Notes under the pieces: model-generated
Told to the model about the DNA's origin: nothing
Databases searched by the model: none
What the model saw: the letters and a program-made list of their open reading frames with translations, nothing else
Translations under genes and position numbers: made by a program
Source: Geobacter sp. AOG1
Lineage (GTDB): Bacteria > Desulfobacterota > Desulfuromonadia > Geobacterales > Geobacteraceae
NCBI RefSeq assembly: GCF_019972315.1
Contig: NZ_BLIZ01000001.1
Location: 756,513 to 820,512, forward strand
Reading direction: 5' to 3'
Length of the DNA stretch: 64,000 nt
Shown here: piece after piece, positions 13,983-39,733 of the stretch
Layout: the number at the start of each line of letters is the position of its first letter
Position numbering within the stretch: position 1 is the stretch's first letter

Positions 13983-14555
13983 TCACTTCCCCTGATACAC
14001 CTCTGAATGCCCATTATGCTCTTCAAAGTTCTTTATATAAATATCCACCAAGTCCTTATTACCCATAATCACCAATAGGTTCTCAGCATTCTTCTCTTCA
14101 GCGGCTCTTGTGAAATTGAATGATCCAGTTATCAGGGTACTTCTATCCAAAATCATTATCTTGTTGTGGGCTATTGCGTGTTTGTCATCTATATAGGTAG
14201 GGATTCCTGCATGGGCTACGAAGTCTGCTGAGGTGTATTTCTGTTTCCTCTGGCTCTTGTCCAAGACTACTTCGATCTTGACTCCTCTCTTAAGTGCATT
14301 AATAAGGGCCTTGGCTATTGGCGTGGATGTGAAGGAATAAGCTTGTACAAGGATCTCGGACTTAGCGGAATTGATTTCTTTAATGATGGCCTCAGTAGCT
14401 CTACCGTTGGGGGAGAAGTAGACCGCTGTGGTTCCTGTAGAGGTGAATTGATCTGCTTGGACTATTGGAGGGCAAATATAGAGGGATAACGTAATCCAGA
14501 GGATTATGCAGGAGGTCTTGCAGGAGATGAAATTACACAGTAGGTGGAAGTTCAA
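13983..14555 (-). CDS. Periplasmic phospholipase D-family nuclease (Nuc type)
   Basis: 190-aa protein with a signal peptide (hydrophobic CIILWITLSLYICPPIVQA, cleavage likely after QADQ) and one HKD motif: H130, K132, D137 within HNKIMILDRS, followed by GSFNFTRAAEEKN. Single-HKD proteins of this size dimerise to make one active site and act as non-specific DNases (Nuc of conjugative plasmids). The start appears to be TTG at 14555 with only a weak Shine-Dalgarno. The first about 200 bp, including upstream DNA, are duplicated at the start of the helicase gene 3.2 kb upstream (17580-17785). Location with an exported signal points to the periplasm. Confidence 0.88.
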   Translation of the reverse strand: MNFHLLCNFISCKTSCIILWITLSLYICPPIVQADQFTSTGTTAVYFSPNGRATEAIIKEINSAKSEILVQAYSFTSTPIAKALINALKRGVKIEVVLDKSQRKQKYTSADFVAHAGIPTYIDDKHAIAHNKIMILDRSTLITGSFNFTRAAEEKNAENLLVIMGNKDLVDIYIKNFEEHNGHSEVYQGK

Positions 14556-14726: not shown

Positions 14727-17700
14727 TTATGAGGTAAGCCGACGACGACCAGCGTGGGACGATATGTTGATAGTATGCGTACAGAAAAAGTCTGCATCGC
14801 GGCGGTAGTTGATACAACCGAAGAACCTTCCAGAGGGTCCGCTTCGCTCAACCATCTCACCTCCACACTTGGGGCATATTGGTATCTCGGTACTACACGC
14901 TCGCTTTGTGCATACGCGAGACCCCCCTCTCCGCCTCATTAGACCGCCGCATTGCGGGCATGGATGCTCTTTGTACTTACAATAGGGGAAGTTGTTGCAG
15001 GCAACAAAAGCACCATAGGCGCCCTCTTTAGGAATGAGTGATCCTGTGCCACAATTTGGACATGGCACGTTAGCTATCCCCTCACATGTGAGCTCAGAAT
15101 CGAACTCGTCCGTACATATCGGATAGCCATTCTCTTCATTGAGTAGCTCAAGGACGAACGTGGATGTCTCCATTGGGTTGTATGCAAGGTAGACGCGATG
15201 ACGAGCACGCGTTAGGGCAACATAGAAGAGCCTGCGTTCTTCAGCCAGTGAGAACGATTCTTGTTCGGGAAGCAGGAAATCGAGAACCGAGTCGGTTGGC
15301 TTTTCACTTGGGAATCCGTGCTTTCCTCTGCCCAGTCCTAAAACCACCACAAAATCGGCTTCTTTTCCTTTGGCCGCATGCACGGTCATAAACTTAATGT
15401 CCAGCGACGGATACAAAGTCCTGATACGTCGCTTCTCCGCCGGCGTACTCCACTCATCAACAACAAAGTTGTAGCGACCAAGCACCAAAACTGTGGGATT
15501 GTGTTCGAGGCCATGGCTCATGCGCTTGTCGATTGCGTCCAGAGCCATGTTGAGCCCAACTTCTGTACTCACCGAACGAATGAGAGAAATGGCCGGGTGA
15601 GGTGTCTTCGCAATAGATTGAATGGACTTCACAATTTGCGCAGGGTTTTTTAGTACGAATTTTGATGCAACGTCTCCAATCTGATCATTGAACCTGAATG
15701 TTGTGTCCAACGGAGTTATCGCGGTCGCTCCGAATTTCTTCTGAAAGTCTCTCGTATAGGAAATGTCACTCCCTGTGAAGCGATAGATCGACTGCCAGTC
15801 ATCACCAACCACAAATAGTACCGATTCAGACTGTTGTTTAACCAGCGAGGAAATCAACCTAGCTCTAGAGCTGCTAATGTCTTGGAACTCATCCACTAGG
15901 ATATGGCTGTAAGGCGATTCAAAGCTATTCGACTCAACATGGGCGATCGCCCGACGAATCATGTCCGCGAAGTCGATCTGCCTGCACTTCGCGAGTTCGT
16001 CTTCATATGCCTTCAGAATCGGTGAAAACAGATCTAGTAACAGGAGAAGCCTTGTGGCATCGATGTGCTTTAAAGCAGCCTTCCTGACCGAATCAAGATC
16101 GTGGCCAGACTGCTTGAAAATATCGACGAAACCGGACATTAACTCCGCGAAATCTGTGATTTCAGAAGACTGTCGCAGCTCCAGAAGCAGTTCTTCATCC
16201 GACTTGGGATGCAGCTCAATACCAGCGGTCAATAAGGATTCAGCAAGGACTGATTCCAGAAGCCCCTCTCTTTTGAGATACGAGTAGGTTTCCACTAGCT
16301 TGGTGCCATGCTTGAGATGTAGTGCGCGCTTCCACTTGATACCTTCAAGGTATTTACGTTGATCGAAATGAAATGGCGGCTGTCCTTCTCGATCGAGAGC
16401 GAAGTGTTCTATATATACACCGTTATCAGGAAGGAAGAAGTCCGGTTTGTACTGCCGGAAATCGGGTCCTGACGTATCAATTTCGTATGGGTGCTCATAC
16501 TCGTAGTTGATGCTATTCGCGCTAAGGAAGTTGGCAATCACGCACTCTTCAAAGCTCTTGACCACCTCTCCCTTGAGAGTTCTGAGCTCGTTGGCGCGCA
16601 CGTAATTGTAATAGTCCTGCATCGAGTCGAAATCAAAGGGGTTACGATACGGGAATCTCTCGCTGCCATAGTAACGAACGAGCATGGCTCGGTATTCTGG
16701 CTCATCGCAGTGCTTTGTGATCTCAGAATCGATGAATTTTCCAAACCGTTTCTTGTCTTCTGCCATTGGAGTGAGGTCGGGGCGACGGCCCTCAACAGCA
16801 CCTATGATTTCAAGACCCAAGGCATGGAAAGTCTTGATAGTAGGAACACCGGAACTTAGCCAGGGCTGCAGTCTGCTATTCTGACGCTCCTGCATTTCTT
16901 CAGCAGCCTTCTTCGCATAGGCAAGCATAAGCAACTGGTCAGGACGAGCTCGTTTGGATGCGAGCAGGTAGCCTGCCCGACCGATCATTGTGCTAGTCTT
17001 CCCCGTGCCTGCTCCTGCGAGAACGAGATTGTTGTCCTCGCTGACTACGCACGAACGCCGCTGGGCTGGAGTCAGTGGTTTGCTTTCGACAGTGTCGAAG
17101 AACTCGCTGAAGGTCAAAAGTTCGGACTCGACGAACAACTTGTTCGCATTTGCAACAAGCGACTTCGAGTCGACGAAAAAGCGTTCCACTTTTGAAGTAA
17201 GTTGTTTCTCTGCAAGACTGGATAAAAACCGCCAACGGGCCGTACGAGTGGCTGAGAGAGCCTTACCTGCCATATCGACAAGTATCTGCCGATGTGAATC
17301 ACGTGCATAGGAATTAGTGGCGAGGAAATTGTCTATCCGCTCAGAGGTCATTTTGAGAGCCTCCATCTCGGGTCCAAACCCGCGACGGGCTCGATTACGA
17401 TACAGAGACCATGCTATTGCTATTACCGACATGGCAGCGGAGGATGTAAGCATAACGGCAATAGGCAGCAAAATCGACCTTCCCCCCATACGGTCAATCT
17501 CGACTAATATTGACGTAGGAGAAAAGATTTGCTTCAGGTTCTCAGGTATAGCTACATCAAGCTTTTTTATAAATGACCCTGCATTTCCTCCATTAGAGTA
17601 GAAGTAGGCTGGCATGGTTCCTGTAGGAGGGAATTGATCAGCTAGGAGCATTGGAGGGCAAATATAGAGCGATAACGTAATCCAGAGAACTAGACAGGGA

Positions 17701-17756
17701 TGTCTTACGTGAGATGAAATTACACAGTGGTGAAAGATCATGTCATCTCTGTTCAT
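14727..17756 (-). CDS. Helicase IV-like UvrD/Rep helicase with a PLD-derived membrane leader
   Basis: 1009-aa SF1 helicase. Walker A AGAGTGKT (247-254), DEFQD (Walker B region, LVDEFQDISSSRARL), VGDDWQSIYRFTGSD, TVHAAKGKEADFVV and FYVALTRARHRVYLA motifs are present. An insert with YKPDFFLPDNGVYIEHF (D439, E450) resembles the nuclease-like segment of helicase IV. The C-terminus has three zinc fingers (CPNC, CPQC, CPKC with partners), topoisomerase type. Unusual is the N-terminus: residues 20-80 are a homologue of the signal peptide and start of the PLD nuclease at 13983-14555, followed by a second membrane helix (94-118) and RNRARRGFG. This predicts a helicase anchored by two helices with a short periplasmic loop. 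The helicase body looks G+C-richer than its surroundings, suggesting fusion of an imported gene to a copied leader. Confidence 0.9.
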   Translation of the reverse strand: MNRDDMIFHHCVISSHVRHPCLVLWITLSLYICPPMLLADQFPPTGTMPAYFYSNGGNAGSFIKKLDVAIPENLKQIFSPTSILVEIDRMGGRSILLPIAVMLTSSAAMSVIAIAWSLYRNRARRGFGPEMEALKMTSERIDNFLATNSYARDSHRQILVDMAGKALSATRTARWRFLSSLAEKQLTSKVERFFVDSKSLVANANKLFVESELLTFSEFFDTVESKPLTPAQRRSCVVSEDNNLVLAGAGTGKTSTMIGRAGYLLASKRARPDQLLMLAYAKKAAEEMQERQNSRLQPWLSSGVPTIKTFHALGLEIIGAVEGRRPDLTPMAEDKKRFGKFIDSEITKHCDEPEYRAMLVRYYGSERFPYRNPFDFDSMQDYYNYVRANELRTLKGEVVKSFEECVIANFLSANSINYEYEHPYEIDTSGPDFRQYKPDFFLPDNGVYIEHFALDREGQPPFHFDQRKYLEGIKWKRALHLKHGTKLVETYSYLKREGLLESVLAESLLTAGIELHPKSDEELLLELRQSSEITDFAELMSGFVDIFKQSGHDLDSVRKAALKHIDATRLLLLLDLFSPILKAYEDELAKCRQIDFADMIRRAIAHVESNSFESPYSHILVDEFQDISSSRARLISSLVKQQSESVLFVVGDDWQSIYRFTGSDISYTRDFQKKFGATAITPLDTTFRFNDQIGDVASKFVLKNPAQIVKSIQSIAKTPHPAISLIRSVSTEVGLNMALDAIDKRMSHGLEHNPTVLVLGRYNFVVDEWSTPAEKRRIRTLYPSLDIKFMTVHAAKGKEADFVVVLGLGRGKHGFPSEKPTDSVLDFLLPEQESFSLAEERRLFYVALTRARHRVYLAYNPMETSTFVLELLNEENGYPICTDEFDSELTCEGIANVPCPNCGTGSLIPKEGAYGAFVACNNFPYCKYKEHPCPQCGGLMRRRGGSRVCTKRACSTEIPICPKCGGEMVERSGPSGRFFGCINYRRDADFFCTHTINISSHAGRRRLTS

Positions 17757-18573: not shown

Positions 18574-21276
18574 TCAATCCACATACTCCCGTTTACCCGC
18601 TAAATAGCCAAAACTCATATTCGGAAGTACCTCGCTATGGGGAATCAACAGGTACTTCCAAGACTTTCCCCCATTCTCTAGGTTGTGATTTGATGCGTGT
18701 TTGCAGTACTGGACCGCCGCCTTAGCCTTTTCCTGGACATCAGCATCTTTCATCTGATTATCTGCTTTGATCTCGGTTAGATAGACATGTTCGGCGGTCT
18801 CAACTACAAAATCAGGCTCATACGTGCGTGCATTGTGATCCCAGTAAATTTTGAACTGCTTGGGTGCCGGTCGGAGCCACTTGATAACACCCTTGTCATT
18901 TTCTAGGATAACAGCAAAATCCTTCTCCCCTTTTGCATCGAACTTGTACAGGGTATGACATGCCTTTTTGAACCCGGAAAAGATCTTCTGCGGAATTGCG
19001 CTGGTAGGGGTGATGGTATCGGTAAAGTGATGGATGTTGTCCTTCTGGATTTTGGTGAGATTGTGCCCCTCGATCTGGGTGAATGGCTTGACAATCGGTT
19101 CTTCATAGGACTTGGTTAAACAGTAAAAGTGCGGCCTCATCTGGGAGTAAATGAAGGTAGCAATTTCCCGCTTGTGGTACTTAACAACATTGATGAACGC
19201 TTCATCATCCAGATAGCTCTTCAGTTTGGCTATGGCCTGCCCCACAAGTTTCTGGAGCAGTTCCGACTGGCTATCATAGTCGATCTCTGAAAAATTGATT
19301 AGCTCGTTCAATATCAAATTTTCCGGTTTATCAGCATTGATACCATACTTGCCGATCAGGGTTGCCTGGGCATTTTCCTTTCGGTTCAGATACTGAATCA
19401 AAATTTCTTCAGCAACAGGCGGATAATTCAGGTTCTTCGTATCCAGGTCAAAATCATGAAAACCGGACTCCACTTCATCAGTCGGTTGAATGACGATACG
19501 GGGGATTTCAATCGTATTCTGGATAAACTCATCCACCGTTGACTGGTAGACTTCCTCAATCTCGGTGAGAATATCCCCGTCGTAAAGGCTCGGCTGCGGA
19601 GAAGAAAGAAGCTGCTCCTTCACCTTTGCAACCACAATATCCTTGATCTCCTTATTACTCAGCTCCGATACGTTCTTTACCTTATTGTTGACCTGGGGAA
19701 TGGTTGCATAAATTGTCTTCCTGATTTCCAGGGTAACTGTAGCCTTCGCCTTTTCCTTCGATTCAGGCATGGCTTCAATCTTCTGTTTCTCGGCCTCTAC
19801 CTTCTCTTCAAAGGCTGACTTGGCAACGACAACCTCTTTGATTCCCTCAAAGGTAGCAGGGTCAATCTCGATGATGTTTTTCTGTTTGATGATGGAACCG
19901 GGCTTGTTGGCTTCTTCGATGATCCTCTGAAAATTATCGTGGGCGATGATGGTCAGTTTATCAACCTTGTCATGACCGGTACGCTTGCCGTAGGGGAGTC
20001 GTAGCCCTCGGCCTATGGTCTGTTCGGTTAAGGTTTCGGATGCCGATGTCCTCAACGGAATAATGGTGTAAAGGTTGGTAACGTCCCACCCCTCTTTAAG
20101 CATATTGACGTGAATAACGATTTCAATCTTATTATCCGAGTCTTCCAAGGTCAGAAGTTGCTGAATGTTCTCTTCCTTCTCTTCTCCCCGCTGATTTGAA
20201 TGTATCTCCATTACCTTGCCGCTGTAGCGTCCCTCAAAGAAGGCGGTTGACTGGATCAACGATTTAACCTTTGATGCGTGGTCAGTATCCCTCGTCACTA
20301 CCAGGACAAACGGTTTTACCAGTCGGCATTTCTCATCACGGGCGTATATTTCAAGGGCCACCTTGGTATCCTCGTGGATACGGATACCATCCTCCAGCTT
20401 GATCCTGTCCAGCTCTTCCTGGGTGTAGCGTGACGGGTCAAAATCCTTCCGAGTGGCAACGGCAGGTTCTTTAACAAAACCATCTTCCATCGCCACTCCC
20501 AGACCATACTGATAGACCACGTTCTTGAATAGTTTCGTTCCGCCGGTTTCTGTCTTGGGCGTTGCGGTCAGTTCGATCCCCAGAACCGGATTAAGCTCAT
20601 TGATAACCTGCATTCCCCGTTCGGCGCGGTAATGATGGGATTCATCCATCAGAATAACCAGGTCATCGAGACCGGCAAGATGATCGAAATAGGATTGGCC
20701 GATATATTCAGAAAGCCGCTTGATGCGGGGTAGTTTCCCCCCTTTGGTCTCGGCGTTGATCTTGGAGATATTGAAGACGTTGATATTGATAGACTCGTCA
20801 AAGAGCGGCAGCGTTCCCTTGCTGGTGTAGTTGTCGCCGGTAATAATCCCCGGTGGGCGGTGTACAAAGTCGCCAATGCCGGGAAAGACATACTTGGGGC
20901 TGCGTGGATTGGAAAAATCCTCGATCAGCTTGTTATAGATGGTCAGGTTCGGTGCCAGAACAAAGAAGTTCTTGATCCCTTTTGCCTGATTCAGCCAAGC
21001 AATGAAGGCTCCCATCAGGCGAGTTTTCCCTACGCCTGTTGCCAGAGCAAAGCAAACACAAGGAAAGTTTCTCTCAAAGTCGGTGAATACCCGTGCTGAA
21101 TCGTTCTCAGCGGCAAGTCCACCGGTGAACTGCAAAACCTTTTCCTGCTCGGTGGCAAGGTCAGCATCTTTCTTGAGTGGCAGGATGTCAGCTATTCCTG
21201 CCAGTATCTCAAGACTCTCGGTCTGGGGATGGCGCAAGCTCAGGCGGTTTTTGATGTAGGCGGCGTGTTTGTCCAT
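18574..21276 (-). CDS. res: Type III restriction enzyme, Res subunit
   Basis: 900-aa SF2 helicase-nuclease. ATGVGKTR (residues 79-86, Walker A), MDESHH (210-215, Walker B), ELTATPKTE (motif III) and TIGRGLRLPYG (motif VI) are visible. The C-terminal nuclease has PDFVVETAEHVYLTEIKA, the PD-(D/E)xK motif near residue 840. Type III Res with Mod recognises asymmetric sites and cuts about 25 bp away after ATP-driven communication. The ATG directly follows the mod stop (TAA-ATG), so they are coupled. This is the last gene of a seven-gene operon. Length is near the usual 900-1000 aa with no visible damage. Confidence 0.96.
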   Translation of the reverse strand: MDKHAAYIKNRLSLRHPQTESLEILAGIADILPLKKDADLATEQEKVLQFTGGLAAENDSARVFTDFERNFPCVCFALATGVGKTRLMGAFIAWLNQAKGIKNFFVLAPNLTIYNKLIEDFSNPRSPKYVFPGIGDFVHRPPGIITGDNYTSKGTLPLFDESININVFNISKINAETKGGKLPRIKRLSEYIGQSYFDHLAGLDDLVILMDESHHYRAERGMQVINELNPVLGIELTATPKTETGGTKLFKNVVYQYGLGVAMEDGFVKEPAVATRKDFDPSRYTQEELDRIKLEDGIRIHEDTKVALEIYARDEKCRLVKPFVLVVTRDTDHASKVKSLIQSTAFFEGRYSGKVMEIHSNQRGEEKEENIQQLLTLEDSDNKIEIVIHVNMLKEGWDVTNLYTIIPLRTSASETLTEQTIGRGLRLPYGKRTGHDKVDKLTIIAHDNFQRIIEEANKPGSIIKQKNIIEIDPATFEGIKEVVVAKSAFEEKVEAEKQKIEAMPESKEKAKATVTLEIRKTIYATIPQVNNKVKNVSELSNKEIKDIVVAKVKEQLLSSPQPSLYDGDILTEIEEVYQSTVDEFIQNTIEIPRIVIQPTDEVESGFHDFDLDTKNLNYPPVAEEILIQYLNRKENAQATLIGKYGINADKPENLILNELINFSEIDYDSQSELLQKLVGQAIAKLKSYLDDEAFINVVKYHKREIATFIYSQMRPHFYCLTKSYEEPIVKPFTQIEGHNLTKIQKDNIHHFTDTITPTSAIPQKIFSGFKKACHTLYKFDAKGEKDFAVILENDKGVIKWLRPAPKQFKIYWDHNARTYEPDFVVETAEHVYLTEIKADNQMKDADVQEKAKAAVQYCKHASNHNLENGGKSWKYLLIPHSEVLPNMSFGYLAGKREYVD

Positions 21277-22950
21277 TTATTCCCCCATCCCGGCAAAGAT
21301 ATTCATCTGTCCTGCCTTTTCCGCCTTTGAAGCCATTTCTTCTTTCTTTTCCTCAACCGGTGGGCCGGATGGAACAAACTCAGGATCATCTGGGTTGCGG
21401 GGCATATCAACGATGTTCAGGCTATAATCGTCTCTGTCAAACTCGCACTTACCTAACAGCATAGAAGGGATTTTCTTAACGGTGATGTTGTTATATTTAC
21501 CGTCAGCCCCTTCAAAGTGGGACTTGCAGCAGATCAGCAGACTCTCGTCCGGCTGCATCTCTTCGTGGATTCTGTCCAGGTGTTCCGGGGTCAAGTGAAC
21601 GGTAGTAGTGAAGATGTAATCTTTTTCCGATGACTGCCCCTGCTTCCAGTAGTAGACCTCATCCGGGGAGTAGCAGAAATTCTCATGTTTCGCCATGGCA
21701 GCGGCCAACATGGTCTGGTTGTACTCCTCGTTGATTATCCACTGGTCATAACAGTCTTTCTTCAGTAGACTTGGGGCCATGTAGTAATACTTGAATCCTC
21801 CGCCACCCTGCCAATTTACCACCTTGGAGATGCCCCCTTGGTCGGTACCGTCACAGACCTTTTGCAGTCGTGGTTGAATGTGAGTATGGCAATGTTCGCC
21901 CAACTCTACCATTATCCATTTGCGCCCCATCTTATGAGCAACTGCACCCGTGGTGCCGGAACCGGAGAAGGAGTCGAGAATGAGGTCTCCGGGGTTCGTC
22001 GTAATTTCTACTATCCTCTTTATTAATCTTTCTGGCTTAGGCGTCGTAAATACGTCCTCTGAGTTGAATGCCAAAGTTTCTTTTTTTGCCTCTTGCGTAT
22101 GTCCAACTTCGTCGTGTCCCCAAACAGTTTGAGGAACTACACCGTCTCTAACCTCACTGAGAAATCTTTTAAACCGTGGCTGGTTATTCCCTTTTGCACC
22201 CCACCATATGCGGTTTTCTGAGTCCAACTCTAAAAATTTCTCTTTTGAAATTGTCCAGTATCTACCTGGAGGGGGGCCAGGAATCTCTTTCCCAGATGGG
22301 GTTGTTACTGGATATTGCCCAAGGGAATAAAAGTTCCTAGCGGACAGGTCACTTGAAGTCCAGAGACCTCGTGAATCATTGTCGGGATTTTTGTAAGTTG
22401 AATCTGCTTTCTCTGTCCTAGGAAGGAGATTTCTTTTCCACAAGTTTTTCAACTTCGCATAGACGAGAATATGATCGTGCGAGTCTGATAGGTGAATAGC
22501 TGTGCTATTTGGTGAAAAGCGTTTTTGCCAAATTACGTTCGATACAAAATTACTCCGCCCGAATATCTCATCGCAAAGAACTTTTAAGTAGTGAGATTCA
22601 TTGTCATCAATCGTAATCCATATCGAACCATCATCCGCCAACAGTCGCCTGAGAATTTCCAGACGATCCCGCATCATGGTCAACCAAAGTGAATGCTCAA
22701 GACCATCATCATAATGGGTAAAAGCACTGCCAGTATTGTACGGCGGGTCAATGAAAATACACTTTATCCTCCCGGTAAATTCCTGTTCCAGTGCTTTCAG
22801 CGCCAGCAGGTTATCCCCGAAAATCAGCATATTCTCCGTATTCCGGTCGCCGTAGGATTTATCAGGGTCTTCAATCAGAATCCTAGGCTCCAGTTTTGGC
22901 TGAATATCCTTTCCGATCCAGGTTAGTTCAAGTTTTTGGTTCAGGCTCAT
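21277..22950 (-). CDS. mod: Type III DNA adenine methyltransferase, Mod subunit
   Basis: 557-aa beta-class N6-adenine methyltransferase. Catalytic DPPY at 68-71 (CIFIDPPYNTGSAFTHYDDG) comes before the SAM-binding motif ILDSFSGSGTTGAVAHKM (about 318-335), the permuted order typical of type III Mod. Between them lies a variable region that would hold the target recognition domain. Mod also provides DNA recognition for Res. Spacing is 6 bp after the Hsp70-like gene and 0 bp before res. It is the only methyltransferase of the operon, so it presumably protects the host for the entire set of nucleases. Confidence 0.96.
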   Translation of the reverse strand: MSLNQKLELTWIGKDIQPKLEPRILIEDPDKSYGDRNTENMLIFGDNLLALKALEQEFTGRIKCIFIDPPYNTGSAFTHYDDGLEHSLWLTMMRDRLEILRRLLADDGSIWITIDDNESHYLKVLCDEIFGRSNFVSNVIWQKRFSPNSTAIHLSDSHDHILVYAKLKNLWKRNLLPRTEKADSTYKNPDNDSRGLWTSSDLSARNFYSLGQYPVTTPSGKEIPGPPPGRYWTISKEKFLELDSENRIWWGAKGNNQPRFKRFLSEVRDGVVPQTVWGHDEVGHTQEAKKETLAFNSEDVFTTPKPERLIKRIVEITTNPGDLILDSFSGSGTTGAVAHKMGRKWIMVELGEHCHTHIQPRLQKVCDGTDQGGISKVVNWQGGGGFKYYYMAPSLLKKDCYDQWIINEEYNQTMLAAAMAKHENFCYSPDEVYYWKQGQSSEKDYIFTTTVHLTPEHLDRIHEEMQPDESLLICCKSHFEGADGKYNNITVKKIPSMLLGKCEFDRDDYSLNIVDMPRNPDDPEFVPSGPPVEEKKEEMASKAEKAGQMNIFAGMGE

Positions 22951-22956
22951 AACACC

Positions 22957-25689
22957 TCAATTTACGCTATAATCATTTCTGAATTTAAGATCAATTGCAT
23001 AGGCTGGCATTGCTTTTGACTTTCCGTTTGTTATCTCTTCAATTTGACTTGATATTTCTTCATAATCAACTTCAATTGATACATCATCATCAACAGCTTT
23101 GTAACTGACTTTTCCCTTTTCATATTTATCGAAAACATAGCACTTTATGCTGCCTACTCTATCTGAACACTCTTCAAAAAAGTAAAACGGCAACATGGAA
23201 ATACACTTTCCAGTTTTTATATCTACAAGTAAAGGTTCATTGATAGGGAAAGAGTGTTCCCCTGCATAATCTAACGATTCAACAAAAGGCTGGCTATCTG
23301 AGGCTTTTCTGAATAATCCGGTATATTTGTTCTTGCTGAACTTAATATTTTTAATATGTTCGAGGTATCCGAATACTTTCCCCTGCATAGCCAGATTGCA
23401 GATATTTGCAAATGCCTTCAGTGTTTCGTGGACATCGATTTTTTCAGCAGATAATTTATCATGCTTGTGTTGATTCAAATCAAAAATAGCTTTATTTAGG
23501 GCATCAAGGTAATCACCGGAAATTTTATTGTATTCACCTGCGAATCCAGAACTCCCTTTTACCACCCTCATGCCTTTGCAGATAATGTCCTTCAATGGTC
23601 CCATTGAACGCAAAAAATCTTTAAAAAGGCCGCCTAGTTCACCTTTGGATAACAATTCACTTGCGATTGTATATGCAGCAAATGCAAGCATCCCCTCAAG
23701 TGCTGCTCTGGCATCCTTAATTGACTGGTCTTGATTCTCAAATCTCAAATATTTTCTGAGCGGGTATGAAATAGGGTATGGTAGTTTTGAAACCAGTTCC
23801 TTAAGTTCTAGCCACTGACTGTCATTATTCCTAACCTCGAGAGCATGTATTTGTTCATTACTCAAATAGCATATCGAGGAGTTACTGGTGCCAAAATCAA
23901 ATCCAATATATTTACTAACTGATTCTGACGACTTAACGCCATCAGTTGTCATGTCCAGCACAAAAGGCTTACCATCGACAGAAATTCCTTGAACTCCAGC
24001 GTCAATATTTTCAACCTTGTATATAAATCGTGGTATTGCGGTACCGTCTTCCTTTACCGTTAATTCAACCCTAAGTTTACTATCGAAACTTATATTGGTT
24101 GGAGAATGTACGGTGTTGTCAACATTGTACAGGCTATCTGTGTCAAAACCTTCATTTCTATTTACAGTGTCGCAAGGGCGGGTAAAAAAATATTTCAGAT
24201 GATGTTTAGGTGGGTGATTTAATCTAAACTTCCACTGCAAAGGTTCGTTGATGAAATTAGATAAAGCTTGTGCTGAGGGTATTAGGTCGCCAAGTTTTGT
24301 GCCGTCCATATCTATTTTATTGCCGACGGATTGATAAGTTCTTTCTTCGATGCCTTTATCATCAGGATTCAAAAATAACCTTACTGGATTATACGTTACA
24401 GAAACAAACTCACTTTCCGGGTTATAGTAACGACGAGCACATTCTATGGCCAACCCTTTAGCCACAATATCTTGAAAAGACTCAGAAAGTGGGATTGGCC
24501 GAGCATGCCCCAAATCCGCTTCAAAATCAGTAGACAATAATTTGTCAAGCCATCGAATATTGGAAGATCCTCCCGATATAAGTGTGACGGTTATCCCTCT
24601 GTCCTTCAATTGCTCTTTTGCCCTTTTGATAGCATTTCTAATTGTTTTCTTTAGATGCTGTTCCCATATGTTTTCTTTGAACAGCTTTCTCAACTCATGT
24701 CCACGTAGAGAATTTTCCTCCCAAGCAGTGTCTATCTTAAACGGGTTCTTGGGCATACTCACTTGAACACTTTCATAGCAATCAATAGTTAAATCCCAAT
24801 TTCTTATTTTATTGCAAAGTTCAAGCTTCGGATTCTCAACTGAATTGATGAGCCTTCTAAGATTGCTGATGAATGCCTGTTTCTCAGACGAAAGGGATAA
24901 ATAATCGGTTTGCCCCTTCTTTACTTTTCTAAAAGTATCCAAAAAGGTAGTAGCCATGTTTTTGGCTTGACCGTCAAGATTTCTTAAAGTCAGGTATATA
25001 GCTATTTGTTCATTTACGAAAAACCCGCCAATTGGCTCCGAAGAAGCGGCGAGCGGCTTAGAATGCTTTCCTGATAAGCTTATATCGCCCAAAACCGTTG
25101 ATTCGATGACTGACACGTCAAAAGTGCCGCCACCAAAATCTATTATAAGGGCTATGTTTTTAGTATTATCTTTTAGTTGAGGGATTCTAAGTCCATATCT
25201 GTAGTATTGATATACGGCAAACGGTTCAGGTAAAAATTCAACTGAATCGTAATGAACCAGTATACGCCTTATGTTGTCCCTGTAATTTTTTATCCAGTTA
25301 CTGCCCCTGTCTTCAATCTGGAACGCTAACGGCTCAGCTACAATTATTTTAAGCCCTTTTTTATCATGTTTAGGTATTAACCCCTGACCTTCAACTTTTG
25401 AGAGTACTGCATCGAAAAAATCTTTAGAAAGCTGAAAAGCACTTTTGGGATTCCCATCTGCACTATCAAAATACTCAATCCTGTCTTTAGTTGCTCCCGC
25501 GACATATTCACCAAGCTCGACCTTGAAATTATGATTGATAATTTCATTGTCCTTCATTGACTTAATTGCTTTATAACCTATTTGTAGACCACCTTTAGCA
25601 TAATGTAATGCTGTAGGGATACATGTATGCCCATCAATTTTAGTAAGGTCAGTGCCTTCAATAAAAAAAGACTTATCTCTATTTTCCAT
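22957..25689 (-). CDS. Hsp70/actin-fold ATPase with permuted motif order
   Basis: 910-aa protein with Hsp70-type nucleotide-binding motifs in an unusual order. Residues 152-166 (FLPEPFAVYQYYRYG) match the connect-1 segment, 181-193 (LIIDFGGGTFDVS) the phosphate-2 loop, 368-380 (VTLISGGSSNIRW) the adenosine loop. The phosphate-1 loop, which opens canonical Hsp70 proteins, is instead near residue 595-605 (IGFDFGTSNSS). The N-terminus (FFIEGTDLTKIDGHTCIPTA) resembles what follows phosphate-1 in DnaK. The last 300 residues are unfamiliar, with no DnaK substrate domain. It lies between DUF2130 and mod in the operon, with 57- and 6-bp gaps, so it is part of the restriction system. Partner or substrate unknown; a switch or remodelling ATPase is inferred. 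Confidence 0.85.
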   Translation of the reverse strand: MENRDKSFFIEGTDLTKIDGHTCIPTALHYAKGGLQIGYKAIKSMKDNEIINHNFKVELGEYVAGATKDRIEYFDSADGNPKSAFQLSKDFFDAVLSKVEGQGLIPKHDKKGLKIIVAEPLAFQIEDRGSNWIKNYRDNIRRILVHYDSVEFLPEPFAVYQYYRYGLRIPQLKDNTKNIALIIDFGGGTFDVSVIESTVLGDISLSGKHSKPLAASSEPIGGFFVNEQIAIYLTLRNLDGQAKNMATTFLDTFRKVKKGQTDYLSLSSEKQAFISNLRRLINSVENPKLELCNKIRNWDLTIDCYESVQVSMPKNPFKIDTAWEENSLRGHELRKLFKENIWEQHLKKTIRNAIKRAKEQLKDRGITVTLISGGSSNIRWLDKLLSTDFEADLGHARPIPLSESFQDIVAKGLAIECARRYYNPESEFVSVTYNPVRLFLNPDDKGIEERTYQSVGNKIDMDGTKLGDLIPSAQALSNFINEPLQWKFRLNHPPKHHLKYFFTRPCDTVNRNEGFDTDSLYNVDNTVHSPTNISFDSKLRVELTVKEDGTAIPRFIYKVENIDAGVQGISVDGKPFVLDMTTDGVKSSESVSKYIGFDFGTSNSSICYLSNEQIHALEVRNNDSQWLELKELVSKLPYPISYPLRKYLRFENQDQSIKDARAALEGMLAFAAYTIASELLSKGELGGLFKDFLRSMGPLKDIICKGMRVVKGSSGFAGEYNKISGDYLDALNKAIFDLNQHKHDKLSAEKIDVHETLKAFANICNLAMQGKVFGYLEHIKNIKFSKNKYTGLFRKASDSQPFVESLDYAGEHSFPINEPLLVDIKTGKCISMLPFYFFEECSDRVGSIKCYVFDKYEKGKVSYKAVDDDVSIEVDYEEISSQIEEITNGKSKAMPAYAIDLKFRNDYSVN

Positions 25690-25746: not shown

Positions 25747-27000
25747 TTATTCTAACGCATTTAATTCTAATCCTTCAATCTCTTGCAACGTTTTCCCAGC
25801 TATACCATGGAGATCTCCATACATTCCAACTGTCGCCTGCATGACCCGCTCAATCTGCTCCTCACGCTTTGCCCATTGCTTCATAATGGCCTTCCTCTCT
25901 TTATCCAGGTCCTCCTGCATAGAAGAGAATGCTTCGACAATTGCTTGGACCCGATGACGGAACCGTGGGCCTGTGAGGTATTGATAGACCATTTCCATCT
26001 TTGTCTGCTGCCCTTCAGAAGCGCTCCGTGCCATCGCAACTTCAACCAAAGATTGGCGTAGCGCCACGGCTACTGGAATTGCTGCCTTTGGATGTGTCAC
26101 CCAAACTCCATCAATAAGTTCAAATGTCTCAACGTCCTTTGGGAGAGCCTGGCTAACGATTATAGAAATTTCCGCCTTGGCAGTTCGCTGGTCTTCTCGA
26201 AGCTTGGTAAGCCAGCCGTCGCTCCAGCTTTTGGTTCGCTTAGACTCCCATAAAATGGTTCCGCACCTTTGACCGAGGTGGCCATTGACGCGCTGCAAAA
26301 TATCGCCACCATGCTCACCCTTTGGTACTGGTTCAATGGAATCGTAGGGGAACTTCGTACTTAATATTGCTTCGAGATCAAGTTCCTGAACCTCGCCCTG
26401 GAGTTGCTGTGAACCTTGCTCGGCTCTGCGTTTCAATTCCTCAATCTGTTTCTGCATCGCTGTAATGGTATGTTCCTTCTCCAAGACCTTTAGCTTCAAT
26501 TCCTCTTCAGCCTCTTTGCGGGCCTGGTCACGGGTCGAGGTAAGTCCTTCCTGAATCCGTTTTTCAATCGTCAATTCCATTTCCCGCTTGGCATCGTCCA
26601 GTTCCCGCTGTTTGCGGATGAGATCAGCTTGAGCTTTCTGTGCCTCAGCGAGTTTTTCCTCTCGTTGAGCAAGAACTCCCTGCAACTCTTCCAATGACTT
26701 ATCTTTCTGTTCAAGGTCGGTAGCTATGGCAAGTTTTGCCTTCCGTGCTTCATCGGCAACAATCTTAGCCCGTTCCAGACGCAACTTCTCAGCTACTTCC
26801 TCATCAACGGTTTCTTTTGCTTTTGCCAACGCCTCTTCCTGGTCATGCAATGACGCCTCACGTTTGGCGATGTCGGCATCCTTCTGAGCCAGGCGTTTTT
26901 CAAACTCTTTGCGGGTGGCTTCTATAAGCGGAGCCGCAAGCGATTCATTAAGCTTAATTTCAGCTTTACAGCTTGGACAGATGATGGTTGGTTCGGTCAT
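25747..27000 (-). CDS. DUF2130 protein: coiled coil plus restriction-endonuclease-like domain
   Basis: 417 aa. An N-terminal zinc knuckle CPSC (C8, C11) is followed by a very long coiled coil (about residues 25-205, Lys/Glu/Ala/Gln-rich) and then the DUF2130 domain. That domain shows a PD-(D/E)xK-like pattern: GGDILQRV (D233) and GTILWESKRTKSWSDGW (E252, K254). The family is generally annotated as unknown; nuclease activity is inferred from this motif. It is cotranscribed with the GIY-YIG gene (31-bp gap) and the Hsp70-like gene. The coiled coil suggests a bridging or ruler-type nuclease. Confidence 0.85.
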   Translation of the reverse strand: MTEPTIICPSCKAEIKLNESLAAPLIEATRKEFEKRLAQKDADIAKREASLHDQEEALAKAKETVDEEVAEKLRLERAKIVADEARKAKLAIATDLEQKDKSLEELQGVLAQREEKLAEAQKAQADLIRKQRELDDAKREMELTIEKRIQEGLTSTRDQARKEAEEELKLKVLEKEHTITAMQKQIEELKRRAEQGSQQLQGEVQELDLEAILSTKFPYDSIEPVPKGEHGGDILQRVNGHLGQRCGTILWESKRTKSWSDGWLTKLREDQRTAKAEISIIVSQALPKDVETFELIDGVWVTHPKAAIPVAVALRQSLVEVAMARSASEGQQTKMEMVYQYLTGPRFRHRVQAIVEAFSSMQEDLDKERKAIMKQWAKREEQIERVMQATVGMYGDLHGIAGKTLQEIEGLELNALE

Positions 27001-27031: not shown

Positions 27032-27814
27032 TCACAACTTATTATTCAATGCGGCCTCAAACATCTGCCGGGCCTTTTTCTTCTGAATTTCTGAATCTTC
27101 TTTTTGGAAGTATTCAGCAACTGGTAATCCATCACCCCGTTTCCGGTTCTGACAAGGCTCAAGGGCTTCAATAAGAATTGCTTCCATAGCTGGAATTATC
27201 TTTTCAGCAGGAAATGTACTGGGGAACTCACCAAGCACACCGGATTCAGATACTGGCAACATTCCAAACCAGGAAAAACGGTCCCATCTTGTCGAAAGCC
27301 TTTTCATGGTATGCTCGTACAAGCGCTTCCCTAACGGGCGGTCAGTTGTGCGGCCGACATAAATAACCTCTCTGCCATCATAGAGGAGATAAATGCCAAT
27401 TTGATTGCTGAAATCTACTGCATCTGCCCCAATTTGCTCCATCCCCAACAGCTTTGGGTTTGATGTCCATTCGACAGCATCACGCCGCCAAAACATTCCA
27501 AACGATGTGACGACAGGGTGCTGAACCTCATCCTCTTCGTCGATCTCTTCAGCAGAGATTACGTGTGTCGGACTAGACTCAGAAACTTTCCAGATGAATA
27601 GGCCTTTCCCAGCCTTTTGGAACGGGCAGTTTTCTCCTTCGTTCTTTATTGCTGTCGTAAGATGAGCATTTACCGTTCTGGTGGGTGTTGCGCCAAGGCT
27701 TACCCGAAGACCATCTTCAATGATCTTGTCTGTGAGGTCTTTATAGTGCATTGCCCCTGATGCTTCGCGCAGGACTTTTTCTATAGCTTTACGCCATGTC
27801 AGTTCATTGGGCAT
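27032..27814 (-). CDS. HARE-HTH winged helix fused to a GIY-YIG nuclease domain
   Basis: 260 aa. Residues 1-80 form a HARE-HTH domain (TWRKAIEKVLREASGAMHYK then GLFIWKV), a winged helix found in restriction enzymes and chromatin proteins and thought to read modified bases. Residues 138-230 form a GIY-YIG domain: GIYLLYDG (140-147), VIYVGRT (150-156), an Arg in GKRLYEH, and a Glu in MEAILIEALEP. GIY-YIG domains cut DNA using a single metal. The gene lies 44 bp after the DUF262 gene and 31 bp before the DUF2130 gene. Combination with a methyl-sensing domain suggests modification-dependent cutting, an inference. Confidence 0.85.
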   Translation of the reverse strand: MPNELTWRKAIEKVLREASGAMHYKDLTDKIIEDGLRVSLGATPTRTVNAHLTTAIKNEGENCPFQKAGKGLFIWKVSESSPTHVISAEEIDEEDEVQHPVVTSFGMFWRRDAVEWTSNPKLLGMEQIGADAVDFSNQIGIYLLYDGREVIYVGRTTDRPLGKRLYEHTMKRLSTRWDRFSWFGMLPVSESGVLGEFPSTFPAEKIIPAMEAILIEALEPCQNRKRGDGLPVAEYFQKEDSEIQKKKARQMFEAALNNKL

Positions 27815-27858: not shown

Positions 27859-29772
27859 CTACTCGTCTGAAAATCTATAGATTTTGATCAGCATATCAAC
27901 CATTACTTTGGTCCTAGCTCGGATCATTTCAGGCTTCCATGCCTTCGCGTTGGCAAGAGTCATCTTCTGGTTCTTAACCTTGAACTCAATATTGTTAAGT
28001 GCTAAGCCGTTCCTATATCCAATGTTGATCTTATGTCCAAGGGATAAATGGCCTTTGACAAGGGCCTGTTTGTTGGCAAAGGGGGAGGCGGCCAGCTTGG
28101 AGTTGAAACCACTCAATGTTAAATTTCCTAAGCAATGAGCCATTTCCTCAAGGATCTCTTCTGCTTTACTTATGTTGCCATTTGCAATCATATCAACCCA
28201 TGCTTTGGGGATGTTTTCCCCCTTGGGGAAAACATGCTCAACCGTCCAAATGAACCTGTCCTTGTCATCGCGTAACCAAAGGTCAGGTCTATATTCGCGT
28301 GTATGGTATATGGAATCAAGTTTGATAAGAAGGTACCGGCACATTCCTGAGTTTGTTGAATAAAGATTCCCTTCCAATTCTTCACGAAATGTCTCCAAAG
28401 AGGCTCTTTGATCTCCGCCTTTCCGTCCAAGTAACCACCGTTCGAGGAAGGTAATTGAAAGCTTCTCTCCTGATGTAATTTTTGCATGACATTTTTCTAT
28501 AAGGATAATATGGGCCTGGTCTAGATCACGAGTGCTCGGGATATCGGTAATGTTTCTACGGACGTAATACTTACTAAAAAGCTCCACTGACTTTTCCAGA
28601 AAATCGGCTTCGCTAAAAGATTTTTTGGGAAGTGAAAACAGATACAACAACACTTGGTATGCTGGAGCTGCCCCAATGTAAAGTAGGTCAGCAAGGGCGT
28701 TGTCAACAGCTCCGTTGTCAAACTCAGGCTCTAGTAACCGGCCATAAATCAAGGCCTTATCGCACAGTTGCTTGAAGATTGCCTTAGCATCTTTTTTGAT
28801 GAGAGTTTCATAGATTTGTATGCTCTTCGATTTTACTGCTCTGTTAATTCCGTCAATGCGAATGTCCTTATTAACTTTGAAAGCGTTATAAAATTGGCGG
28901 AGAAAACGTTCCTGATCTCCGGCATCGGGGATTGCGTTAATGATTTCTTGCCATTGTTCAAAAGATTCATCAATGTCAACTTTGTGCTTCCGTTCCATTT
29001 CTGAAAGCATCTTATTCTTAATGATATCGATTGCTGATAATGGAACTCCACGGTTGTTCAGTGTTTCAAAGAGAGTGAAGGCGTCTGCCTGGCTACCAAC
29101 ACTAATGTGAACAAAGGTAAGCTGGTTAATTTTAGTCGTCAATGCAAGTAATTTATCTGCTTCATCAGGGGTATTATCCTGAAAATACCGGAATGCCTTA
29201 TACATCGATCTCACACCAAGATAAGATGGTCTTGGGCGCGTTTTTATGAGCCCCAACTCACTGAGGATATAAAGATAGTCATCATAATTATGGTTCTGAA
29301 AACTTGGCTGAACGCGAATAAAGCACATTTTTGACTGCTCAATAAATCCGCCATACTCTCCTTCCCGATATTCGCCTTTTTTCTTCTTTTTCAGTAGTTT
29401 GTTGCGTAGTCCAGAAAGGGAATTTTCAAAATCTTGCCGTTCCTCTTCGTCCTCAAATTCAACATCATCCTTCAAGCCAGTTAGTTTCTGTAGAATTGCC
29501 ATAATCAGCAAAGCCAAGGTAGTCAGGCGTTGCTGACCATCCACAACTTGGTAAATCAACTCATCGCCTGGAGATGCAGGTTCCCCATCATTCACGCATA
29601 TTATTGACCCCATGAAATAGCCTTGATCGTTCTCGTCAACGTCCTGAAGAAGCTTGTCCCATTGGTTGACACCCCATGTATATTCACGTTGATACTTGGG
29701 TATGTGGTAATGTTCGCGCGCCCCCTGGTCACTGCTGATTATTTTGGAAAATGGCATACTATGAGCATTCAT
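27859..29772 (-). CDS. DUF262/DUF1524 protein, GmrSD-like
   Basis: 637 aa. The N-terminal DUF262 domain has the ParB-like signature YHIPKYQREYTWGVNQW and DGQQRLTTLALL (DGQQR 78-82). The C-terminal DUF1524 domain has EHVFPKG near residue 512 followed by LGNLTLSGFNSKLA, the His-Me/HNH-type nuclease pattern. GmrSD proteins of this type cut modified phage DNA using NTP; single-chain fusions such as this are common. The start at 29772 has AAGGAG 9 bp upstream; an alternative GTG at 29817 overlaps the SNF2 gene. With the shorter start there are 29 bp between the two genes. Confidence 0.9.
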   Translation of the reverse strand: MNAHSMPFSKIISSDQGAREHYHIPKYQREYTWGVNQWDKLLQDVDENDQGYFMGSIICVNDGEPASPGDELIYQVVDGQQRLTTLALLIMAILQKLTGLKDDVEFEDEEERQDFENSLSGLRNKLLKKKKKGEYREGEYGGFIEQSKMCFIRVQPSFQNHNYDDYLYILSELGLIKTRPRPSYLGVRSMYKAFRYFQDNTPDEADKLLALTTKINQLTFVHISVGSQADAFTLFETLNNRGVPLSAIDIIKNKMLSEMERKHKVDIDESFEQWQEIINAIPDAGDQERFLRQFYNAFKVNKDIRIDGINRAVKSKSIQIYETLIKKDAKAIFKQLCDKALIYGRLLEPEFDNGAVDNALADLLYIGAAPAYQVLLYLFSLPKKSFSEADFLEKSVELFSKYYVRRNITDIPSTRDLDQAHIILIEKCHAKITSGEKLSITFLERWLLGRKGGDQRASLETFREELEGNLYSTNSGMCRYLLIKLDSIYHTREYRPDLWLRDDKDRFIWTVEHVFPKGENIPKAWVDMIANGNISKAEEILEEMAHCLGNLTLSGFNSKLAASPFANKQALVKGHLSLGHKINIGYRNGLALNNIEFKVKNQKMTLANAKAWKPEMIRARTKVMVDMLIKIYRFSDE

Positions 29773-29801
29773 ACAATATGGCTCCTTGTATTCAATCAAT
29801 T

Positions 29802-32672
29802 CTATTGCAGGTTCCACCGAATCGAAAACAGCTCCTTTTCAGTAATCTGCTGACGAAGCCTTGCTTCAACATCTTCAATCAGCCCTTCTTTCCGGCTATC
29901 AATTTCATCCTGGGCCTCGAACAGTGTACGGCGTTTGGTATTACGCTTTTTCTCCAGCTCCTTAATCTCCTTCTGTGCCTTTAACTTCTCGTCCAACTTG
30001 AGAATCTTCTTTGATTCGGTCTTCTGGAACTTGATTTCCCTGTCCAGCTCTTTCAACTCGTATTCCAGACCACTTTTCAGATCATCAGCCCATTTCTCCA
30101 ACTTCTCCATTTCGTCATCGAAAAACACCGAGTTTCTGGTACTGATTGCCTCAATGATCCGGGATTTACCTGACTCAAACATCTCTTGGAGCTGGCTACT
30201 GCAATTAATTGCAGATGTCAGTTCGCTGCTTTCCCCTGGCAGTGAAAAGAGCCTCTGCGCCTGCTCATCATCCAGTATGGTTCCATCATCAGCGACAGCA
30301 GAGAATATAAGGTGATCCTCTTCCTCGAAGGACTCCACGGATAATCGCACAAGCGACAAATAACCTGATTTACCAATCAACGGTTCAAGAATGGAAATCT
30401 TCAACGGATGCCCGGAATAGTTGAAGACTATTTCTGCTTTTGGCAATGCTTTATGAGCCGCATCATCGAGAATGTGCTGAGCCAGGGGATGACCGATCCT
30501 GAATACATGACCATCTTCCACATGCCGCCCCATGCGATAAAGGCCGAGCGGAATCTCTTTATTTGAACAGGGGGTGCTCTTCAGGTTGAAAGCAGACTCT
30601 TCCGAACCAAAATCAGCATGGCGGTGAAGGGCATACTTGGCCAGTTCCCAAAGCCAGTTTTCGTACTTGTTCAGGTACTCGGTGCTTTCCTTCAGGTTGA
30701 CCCTTAGCTTCTCGTGAACCTCTTCATCGAAGTTCTCCAGCAGCTTCTTGCGGGTCAGCTTCATGTTCTCGTCAATCTCGGTTTCAAGCTCCCGTTGCAA
30801 CTCATCGAATGATGCCTGAATCTCTTCCGGTGAACGGCACTCCTGGTAAATCTTGACAATCCGCTTCTCAAAATCTACACCGGACTCGATGCTTCCCAAA
30901 ACTTCATCACTGGCACCGAAAACCCCGCTGAAAAGGGCAAACTTTTCTGCCAACAGCTCATAGACTCGTTGATCGGCAGCATTGTTGCGATTGAGGAAGT
31001 TGACTACCACCACATCATGCTTTTGACCGTAGCGGTGACAGCGACCAATGCGCTGTTCAATCCGTTGCGGATTCCAGGGGAGATCATAATTGACCACCAG
31101 TGAGCAGAATTGCAGGTTGATCCCCTCTGCAGCTGCCTCGGTAGCAATCATGATCTGGGCTTCTTCTTTGAAGTAGTCCACCAATGCGGAACGCATGTCG
31201 GCAGTACGTGAACCGGTAATTCGATCACTCCCTTTATGCCGTTCATGCCATTGCTGGTATATCTGTTTGGATTGATCGTCCGTATTGGAACCGTTGAACA
31301 GGACAATCTTTCCCTGATGCTCGGTTTCTGAAAGTACCCTGACCAGATAATTTTGCGTCCTGCGGGACTCGGTAAAGATGATGGCTTTTTTGCTCGCACC
31401 TAACGCTTCGGCCTTGGTGAATCCGGCTTTGAGCGCCTGGATCAATGACGTACCTTTGGCGTTCTCCGATATGGATACTGCAAGGTCTCTGAACGCTTCC
31501 AGGTCTGTAATTTCCTGCTGAATGGTCTCAATATCTTCTTTGGTCAGACGTTCTTCAAGCTCGTCCTCTTCCCATTCATCCTTTATCTCGTCCAGAATCT
31601 CGAAATCATCAGCTAGTTCATCCTCAACCGGCACCTTGATTTCGGTATTCTTCAACTTTGCTTTCAGGCGCGTCACGATAGAATCCAATGCACCGGCAAT
31701 GGCAAACGTGGACGATGCTAACAGCTTCCGCAATACAAGCGTCATCAATGAACGCTGGCTGGCTGGTAACGCCTGAATGTTCTCCCGCCGCAGATACTCG
31801 GAAACCATATCATAAAGAACCGTTTCGTCTTGGGTCGGAACGAACTCCTGGGTGATCGGTATCCGGTTGGTGTATTTGATATACTCCAGCACCTGTCGCC
31901 GTAACGTTCTTTTGCAGATGGGCGCAATACGGGTTTTCAGATCGTCAAAGTTTATCTCGTTCGAGAGACGGGCAAACTGGTTCTTGTAACTCTTGATGTC
32001 ACCAAAGACGTATTCATCAACAAAACTGACCAACCCGTACAGCTCCATCAATGAATTTTGCAAAGGAGTGGCGGTGAGTAGTAGCTTGGGCGCGTGCGTG
32101 AGAATATCTTTGATCGTTCGGGCAATCTTGTTGGATGTCTTGTAGACGTTCCGGAGTCGGTGCGCCTCGTCAATAACGACAAGATCCCACTTTATATTTT
32201 TGACCTGCTCGGCCTTGTTCCGGGCGAACTGGTATGAGGTAATGACAATCTCGGTTTGCTCGAAAGGATTGCGCTTACCCAGCTTGACTTCCTGATTGAA
32301 TGATTTGGATTCGAGGATGGTTGAAGGGAGAAAAAACTTTTCCAGTAGCTCCTGGTTCCATTGCTTGCGTAGGCTGGAGGGAACGATAATGAGGATCTTC
32401 CGCTTACGCTCGGCCCAAATCTGGGAAAGAACAATGCCTGCCTCAATGGTTTTCCCCAGACCGACTTCATCAGCAAGGATTGCACCACGGGAGAGGGGGG
32501 ACCGGAACGCAAACAGGGCAGCATCTACCTGATGAGGATTCAGGTCAACCTGGGCATCCGCCAGTGATGCGGCCAGCTTCTCCAGGCTGTCGGAAGAGCA
32601 GCGTTTAGTCAGCTCGTGCGCGTAATATTTTGCATGATAAGCAGTTAAATCCATCGCATTGTCAATATCCAT
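29802..32672 (-). CDS. SNF2-family (RapA/HepA-like) DNA helicase
   Basis: 956 aa. SNF2 motifs are clear: ILADEVGLGKTIEAG (motif I, 66-80), VVIDEAHRLRN (II), LLTATPLQNSLMELYGL (III), and a C-terminal lobe with TEAAAEGINLQFCSLVVNYDLPWNPQRIEQRIGR... (V-VI). The last 200 residues hold long charged coiled coils. SNF2 helicases of this class act as DNA translocases in defence systems such as DISARM (DrmD) as well as in RapA. This is the first gene of the seven-gene operon; its ATG has only a weak ribosome site. A terminator lies 150 bp upstream, so its promoter should be in 32673-32827. Confidence 0.93.
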   Translation of the reverse strand: MDIDNAMDLTAYHAKYYAHELTKRCSSDSLEKLAASLADAQVDLNPHQVDAALFAFRSPLSRGAILADEVGLGKTIEAGIVLSQIWAERKRKILIIVPSSLRKQWNQELLEKFFLPSTILESKSFNQEVKLGKRNPFEQTEIVITSYQFARNKAEQVKNIKWDLVVIDEAHRLRNVYKTSNKIARTIKDILTHAPKLLLTATPLQNSLMELYGLVSFVDEYVFGDIKSYKNQFARLSNEINFDDLKTRIAPICKRTLRRQVLEYIKYTNRIPITQEFVPTQDETVLYDMVSEYLRRENIQALPASQRSLMTLVLRKLLASSTFAIAGALDSIVTRLKAKLKNTEIKVPVEDELADDFEILDEIKDEWEEDELEERLTKEDIETIQQEITDLEAFRDLAVSISENAKGTSLIQALKAGFTKAEALGASKKAIIFTESRRTQNYLVRVLSETEHQGKIVLFNGSNTDDQSKQIYQQWHERHKGSDRITGSRTADMRSALVDYFKEEAQIMIATEAAAEGINLQFCSLVVNYDLPWNPQRIEQRIGRCHRYGQKHDVVVVNFLNRNNAADQRVYELLAEKFALFSGVFGASDEVLGSIESGVDFEKRIVKIYQECRSPEEIQASFDELQRELETEIDENMKLTRKKLLENFDEEVHEKLRVNLKESTEYLNKYENWLWELAKYALHRHADFGSEESAFNLKSTPCSNKEIPLGLYRMGRHVEDGHVFRIGHPLAQHILDDAAHKALPKAEIVFNYSGHPLKISILEPLIGKSGYLSLVRLSVESFEEEDHLIFSAVADDGTILDDEQAQRLFSLPGESSELTSAINCSSQLQEMFESGKSRIIEAISTRNSVFFDDEMEKLEKWADDLKSGLEYELKELDREIKFQKTESKKILKLDEKLKAQKEIKELEKKRNTKRRTLFEAQDEIDSRKEGLIEDVEARLRQQITEKELFSIRWNLQ

Positions 32673-34809: not shown

Positions 34810-34861
34810 TGTCCGATCTCCCGTCGGTGACTTGGCCGTAAATGCCGATCTGACGATATAT

Positions 34862-39084: not shown

Positions 39085-39092
39085 GTACTGTC

Positions 39093-39575: not shown

Positions 39576-39618
39576 CAGATCCTCCTTGGCAAGCGGCAAG
39601 CCGCGATGCCTTAATTTA

Positions 39619-39711: not shown

Positions 39712-39733
39712 AGGAATCTGTCTCGTCATTAAA

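Follow-up and report, generated by a model that had tools for sequence, protein, structure and literature searches.

Few ATPase folds are as well studied or as highly conserved as the Hsp70/actin fold of Hsp70-type proteins, in which a phosphate-1 motif near the N-terminus is standard. In canonical Hsp70s, the two lobes close on ATP binding, and the signal exits through the linker that follows lobe II. Hsp70s are also known from GTPase-centred conflict systems, none of them described as permuted in the accessible part of the source. CnuD of the CoCoNuT type IV restriction systems, according to the accessible part of PMC11090510, is an Hsp70-like protein that contains NBD/SBD units and HEAT-like repeats and whose catalytic motifs are degenerate; RNA binding has been proposed for it. 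The open-access literature searched yielded no Hsp70, DnaK, actin or ASKHA protein with a natural circular permutation.

Here, we analysed a 64,000-nucleotide stretch of the Geobacter sp. AOG1 genome (the window), which encodes a protein related to Hsp70 (Table 1). As in Hsp70/DnaK (PF00012), the NBD motifs, the catalytic residues and the NBD fold (Z ~25) are present, but the β1–β2 segment lies at about residue 593 and the natural sequence stays below the Pfam cut-off. Unlike Hsp70/DnaK, the protein also has a beta domain without an SBDβ sequence match and a C-terminal domain that is not recognisable as a lid. Its phosphate-1 segment matches the N-terminus of YegD-type Hsp70s (PRK11678), a model that is matched by 24 of the 32 family members. 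With CnuD it shares the recruitment of an Hsp70-like NBD to restriction systems, whereas the motifs of the window family are intact and permuted in order, and the available description of CnuD (PMC11090510) includes no permutation. The family is an unrecognised one, annotated as hypothetical and absent as such from PADLOC 2.0.

Motif order in the gene and its relatives

The reading frame is preceded by a ribosome-binding site (GGAG, 25700–25697) 5' of the ATG at 25689, and the sequence upstream of this ATG contains no hidden phosphate-1 motif. The sole phosphate-1 motif (residues 595–605) lies about two thirds of the way along the 910-residue protein, with the phosphate-2, adenosine and connect-type motifs at 155–418. 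The motif positions given in the initial annotation are correct (LPEPFAV, 153–159; DFGGGTFD, 184–191; LISGGSSN, 370–377; IGFDFGTSNSS, 595–605), and VAKGLA is found at residue 409. Among the NCBIfam models, residues 147–196 matched HscA and 594–627 matched residues 2–34 of the YegD-type chaperone PRK11678; no PADLOC model matched the protein up to an E value of 0.01.

Table 1. Coordinates in the window of the permuted Hsp70-type gene, its parts and the neighbouring operon genes
Feature	Position	Strand	Details
Permuted Hsp70-type ATPase gene	22957..25689	minus	910 aa; ATG at 25689, stop ending at 22957
Nucleotide-binding domain without β1–β2 (lobe I from β3 on, all of lobe II)	24412..25668	minus	Residues 8–426; VIA-align of the model
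K56 (DnaK K70)	25522..25524	minus	31/31 homologues with a residue there; ungapped alignment to DnaK
Connect-1-like FLPEPFAV, E155 (DnaK E171)	25192..25236	minus	Residues 152–166; invariant
Phosphate-2 DFGGGTFD	25111..25149	minus	Residues 181–193; DFGGG invariant; Pfam HSP70 match 173–196
Adenosine motif LISGGSSNIRW	24550..24588	minus	Residues 368–380; SGGS-N-W invariant
Connect-2-like helix FQDIVAKGLAIECA	24436..24477	minus	Residues 405–418; V-x-x-GLA-x-ECAR invariant; aligned to DnaK DEVVAIGAAIQ
Inserted beta domain, in place of Hsp70 SBDβ	23959..24384	minus	Residues 436–577; structure only
Displaced β1–β2 with phosphate-1, YIGFDFGTSNSSICYLS	23860..23913	minus	Residues 593–610; conservation, DnaK alignment, sliding control, model strands
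Helical part of C-terminal domain, HEPN-like by structure	23386..23856	minus	Residues 612–768; separate model
Beta-rich C-terminal part, no known relative found	22981..23379	minus	Residues 771–903; separate model and Foldseek
Type III Mod methyltransferase	21277..22950	minus	6 bp downstream of the permuted Hsp70 gene; PADLOC MTase_III 8.4e-209
Type III Res subunit, adjoining mod	18574..21276	minus	PADLOC REase_III 1.7e-194
DUF2130 protein	25747..27000	minus	57 bp upstream of the permuted Hsp70 gene; Pfam 1e-81
HARE-HTH protein, weak GIY-YIG match	27032..27814	minus	
GmrSD/DUF262 protein	27859..29817	minus	
SNF2 helicase, DrmD-like	29802..32672	minus	NCBIfam DISARM_DrmD_b 3.2e-219, 730 bits, under the cut-off of 950

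With the window protein alone as the query, a scan of genome contigs returned no relatives. A scan with a three-sequence alignment as the query, taking one genome per species, yielded 36 clear relatives along with a canonical Hsp70; these relatives belong to Pseudomonas, Marinobacter and further Pseudomonadota, Nitrospinae, Acidobacteriota (Terriglobia and Blastocatellia), Verrucomicrobiota and one Pedobacter MAG. A genome of Geomonas and two plasmid records of Bradyrhizobium encode relatives at about 38% identity; phage records and viral contigs contained none. Five loci elsewhere in the phylum (L007, L008 and L010–L012) gave weak matches that proved to be canonical Hsp70s.

An alignment was made of 32 full-length or near-full-length homologues (Pseudomonadota, Thermodesulfobacteriota, Nitrospinota, Acidobacteriota and Verrucomicrobiota), and five more loci (L039, L043, L045, L046 and L047) have interrupted or shifted frames. 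In every intact frame, and in all 32 aligned homologues, phosphate-2 is followed by the adenosine motif and then by phosphate-1, so that the permuted order, which the initial annotation had proposed to check by aligning homologues, is common to the family. Computation thus establishes this order, with phosphate-1 last in 32/32, across at least 32 homologues, as against the PF00012 order of phosphate-1, connect-1, phosphate-2, adenosine and connect-2. A local rearrangement or an assembly error in the window genome has nothing in its favour and is rejected, since the same order recurs in more than 30 independent genomes as well as in the Bradyrhizobium plasmids.

Computation likewise establishes that the catalytic residues are conserved. 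Residues D184, G186–G188, S372–S375, E155, D598 and G600 are invariant across the alignment (D598, E155 and D184 each in 32/32), K56 is found in 31/31 and T189 in 31/32, and position 601 is T or S. These correspond, in the same order of listing, to DnaK D194, the phosphate-2 glycines, the adenosine glycines, E171, D8, G10, K70, T199 and T11; the catalytic set of DnaK (D8, K70, E171, D194 and T199) is thus present in the 32-homologue alignment. The roles of the matched DnaK positions are established Hsp70 biochemistry. In the Roseobacter copies L036, L040 and L042, phosphate-1 reads DFGTA, not DFGTS, with Ala at the position of DnaK T12.

The maximum-likelihood tree has well-supported groups on either side of its midpoint, all of them permuted, and a single ancient origin of the permutation would therefore be the simplest reading. 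The window protein clusters with gammaproteobacterial copies (46% identity), away from that of Geomonas, a genus assigned by the search tool to the family of the window genome; this placement in the tree indicates horizontal transfer of the gene.

Probable circular permutation of the nucleotide-binding domain

When the family profile was aligned with Geobacillus DnaK (2v7y), residues 585–610 fell on DnaK 3–28, 18–61 on 31–74, 171–193 on 157–179 and 349–391 on 289–329, the matched segments being consecutive in DnaK and permuted in the window family. The second of these matches bears out the earlier remark that the N-terminus resembles the DnaK sequence following phosphate-1. The natural sequence matched Pfam HSP70 (PF00012) at 173–196 with 17.2 bits, under the gathering cut-off of 20.6, whereas a rotated construct, with residues 588–621 put ahead of 20–440, scored 31.8 bits against the same cut-off, and its stretch 8–64, matched to profile positions 2–57, spans the joint. 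Profile–profile comparison by hhalign likewise rose from 143.5 for the natural order (DnaK 42–380) to 188.1 for the rotated one (DnaK 13–380), unbroken across the artificial joint.

As a sliding control, the region 441–900 was sampled in 25-residue segments at steps of five residues, each segment in turn was prefixed to the N-terminal part, and the bits were summed over six Hsp70s. The N-terminal part alone gave 142.2 bits, and segments starting at 581, 586 and 591 raised this to 188–192 bits, a gain of 46 to 50. Segments outside 575–605 lowered the score (mean 139.7, sd 0.9, maximum 141.5); the gain was confined to windows starting at about 581–596, and no other C-terminal segment helped. Among the joints tried, 616/15 was the best.

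An AlphaFold2 model of the full chain, built on the 32-row alignment, had a mean pLDDT of 82 and a pTM of 0.71, and its best Foldseek matches were DnaK and BiP structures. By VIA-align, model residues 9–423 superposed on Hsp70 NBD residues 22–383 (Z ~25, rmsd 3.6–4.3, ~335 residues); residues 9–425 thus correspond to the Hsp70 NBD from about its residue 22, and what they leave uncovered is its first ~21 residues, exactly β1–β2. The model thus has the two-lobe NBD fold with RNase H-like cores, β1–β2 aside. In the established ASKHA topology, a lobe I sheet without β1–β2 is short of its middle strands, and we count this in favour of the permutation. Within the displaced phosphate-1 segment, the model has strands at 593–598 and 603–610.

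The apparent circular permutation of the Hsp70 nucleotide-binding domain is therefore supported by the conserved order, the rotated Pfam score, the sliding control, the profile alignment and the structural model. The initial annotation had offered as an alternative a second, degenerate ATPase domain at the C-terminus, which would make the N-terminal part a truncated one. The phosphate-1 motif does lie about 220 residues past the adenosine motif, as such a reading would have it, but none of the 32 relatives has a second phosphate-2 or adenosine motif, the separately modelled C-terminal part is helical and beta with no ASKHA match, and the N-terminal part lacks β1–β2, its score gain coming solely from the phosphate-1 segment. 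We therefore consider a second ATPase very improbable and abandon this alternative.

The hairpin might instead complete the NBD of a neighbouring molecule, in which case activity would require a domain-swapped dimer or filament. The permuted order and the residue conservation fit this equally well, a monomer prediction cannot discriminate between the two arrangements, and an insertion of ~150 residues separates the hairpin from the rest of the NBD. Completion within the chain is, however, the shorter reading, and the hairpin segment has a pLDDT of ~85 in the monomer; we regard the domain swap as quite improbable.

Operon and settings in other genomes

The restriction operon setting noted in the initial annotation holds, in that type III mod and res genes lie directly downstream of the permuted Hsp70 gene (Table 1). 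The latter is an extra gene beside the type III restriction-modification system and no defining part of it. Rfam found nothing over the window operon, and promoter and terminator scans gave no more than shuffled sequences did.

The surroundings show several further features. tRNA-Ser genes flank the defence region (6709–6936 and 39008–39819), and the region between them may be a genomic island. Direct repeats at 14350–14541 and 17536–17728 (163 nt, 72% alike, and 31 nt, 87% alike, spaced by 3186 bases) lie near both ends of a UvrD-type helicase gene (14727–17756). By eye, 33724–36802 encodes a protein whose cysteine motif, NIGHGCSHGCLYCYAEK, is like that of radical SAM or phage Gp37 proteins and which overlaps a large primase/helicase-looking protein; these are possibly mobile-element genes.

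In other genomes, the gene is found 17 bp after a type I hsdM-hsdS-hsdR set (L018), 23 bp downstream of an SNF2 gene (L046), upstream of DUF1156 and SNF2 genes (L044) or upstream of a GmrSD-AlbA gene (L038). In L035, an SNF2 gene of the same cluster lies 23 bp upstream, with an overlapping DUF1156 gene followed by GmrSD and DUF499. Within 10 kb of other copies lie genes for HerA, MmeI, Eco57I-like proteins or 5mC methylases, and many relatives stand alone, with no defence gene seen adjacent. The partners in L035, and partly those in L044 and L046, resemble the Hma / BR systems (helicase, DUF1156 methylase and DUF499 ATPase; PMC8565338, PMC12839542), although a search by term in the available text of these two papers found no Hsp70; the permuted Hsp70 seems to be an optional insert in Hma / BR-type systems.

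Two co-directional genes, one of 816 residues without a Pfam match (L028:12733–15183) and one of 395 residues with DUF1353 (L029:12738–13925), overlap or trail the permuted Hsp70 gene by about 14 bp and are possible partners. On a Bradyrhizobium japonicum plasmid (L006:10004–10882), the C-terminal domain occurs alone, followed by drmD and an N-6 methylase gene; by eye it is close to the B. barranii copy, and it is either a copy in decay or an independent C-terminal gene.

The PADLOC phage defence candidate PDC-M61B matched 6 of the 32 family members weakly. As a permuted sister it was rejected, because its inspected matches in other genomes show phosphate-1 before phosphate-2. Four of these (L050, L051, L056 and L057) are Hsp70-like proteins of ~900 residues, with ~370 mostly helical residues before a canonical phosphate-1 (SIDLGATNT) and with DFGGST or DFGGCT at phosphate-2.

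Appended domains and a possible ATP-driven switch

The inserted beta domain (436–577) sits, in the model, at the sequence place of SBDβ and may have the same fold; some VIA-align rows indeed reach further, with model residues 9–577 on Hsc70 22–505. A profile comparison between SBDβ and the inserted domain gave no match, and a sequence search of the PDB with this domain and the C-terminal domain gave nothing usable.

Residues 612–910, folded separately, gave a model with a pLDDT of 91 and a pTM of 0.91, in which about eight helices are followed by a beta-rich part. Foldseek found no significant match for this model in the PDB or in a viral structure library. In a second-look structural list, HEPN domains were three of the best six. 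The ROQ domain of Roquin-2, which includes a HEPN domain, matched over 132 residues (Z 11.8, 3.8 Å), AF0298 HEPN had a Z of 8.0 and HepT one of 7.1, scores that helical bundles can also reach by chance. The modelled helical part (~612–770) may thus resemble HEPN folds, by structure only, and no family member has a Pfam HEPN sequence match.

Residues S695, G697, P698, K742 and H743 are invariant in the C-terminal domain. The Arg of the Rx4-6H motif is absent five residues before H743, where nearly all members have F, V, I or L, and the canonical HEPN RNase site is therefore absent. Compared with HEPN domains (Roquin ROQ, HepT and AF0298; superfamily in PMC3710099), the family may thus share a helical fold and has an invariant His in the later helices, but lacks both the Arg of Rx4-6H and a Pfam HEPN match. 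A new defence class could be imagined here, with the permuted Hsp70 hairpin tethered to a HEPN-like, RNA-acting domain, such that ATP turnover, ATP loss or a phage-derived client would trigger an RNA-targeting effector, either on its own or as a backup to restriction enzymes; we consider this unlikely.

We think it quite probable that the protein is a circularly permuted Hsp70-type (ASKHA) ATPase, whose hairpin folds back into its own lobe I and whose C-terminal domain is gated by ATP, acting as a regulator or effector of defence. On this reading the break lies in the β2–β3 turn of lobe I; the β1–β2 hairpin with phosphate-1 follows the inserted beta domain and leads into the C-terminal one. 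Judged by topology, the hairpin would return to lobe I of its own chain, where it would restore a working ATP site. The phosphate-1 hairpin is itself the link between the beta and C-terminal domains, so that cleft closure should bear on it directly; ATP binding would then pull on the segment joining the two domains, and cleft opening and closing would gate the C-terminal domain. The protein could thus serve as an ATP-dependent regulator or effector of restriction and anti-phage systems, alone or inserted in their operons.

As the main rival, the permutation could be right while the protein is a dedicated chaperone for the assembly or protection of large restriction complexes and not itself an effector. 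The ATPase residues are conserved, large multi-subunit restriction or helicase systems recur next to the gene, and the beta domain stands where a substrate-binding domain would. However, many copies have no such partner seen nearby, the beta domain has no sequence match to SBDβ, and the invariant S-x-GP and KH of the C-terminal domain suggest more than a lid. A chaperone role therefore appears somewhat unlikely to us, and we infer that an ATP-driven switch of the C-terminal domain in defence is to be favoured, given that the hairpin is the link between the beta and C-terminal domains.

The order is kept in more than 30 relatives from several phyla, and it therefore looks like a real and old rearrangement. 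The permuted Hsp70 family is an addition to restriction and SNF2/methylase defence operons. An ancient natural permutation with intact active-site residues would mean that lobe I can receive its hairpin from another part of the chain, and since phosphate-1 is here joined directly to the output domains, the family would provide a natural test of how the nucleotide state is transmitted in Hsp70s.
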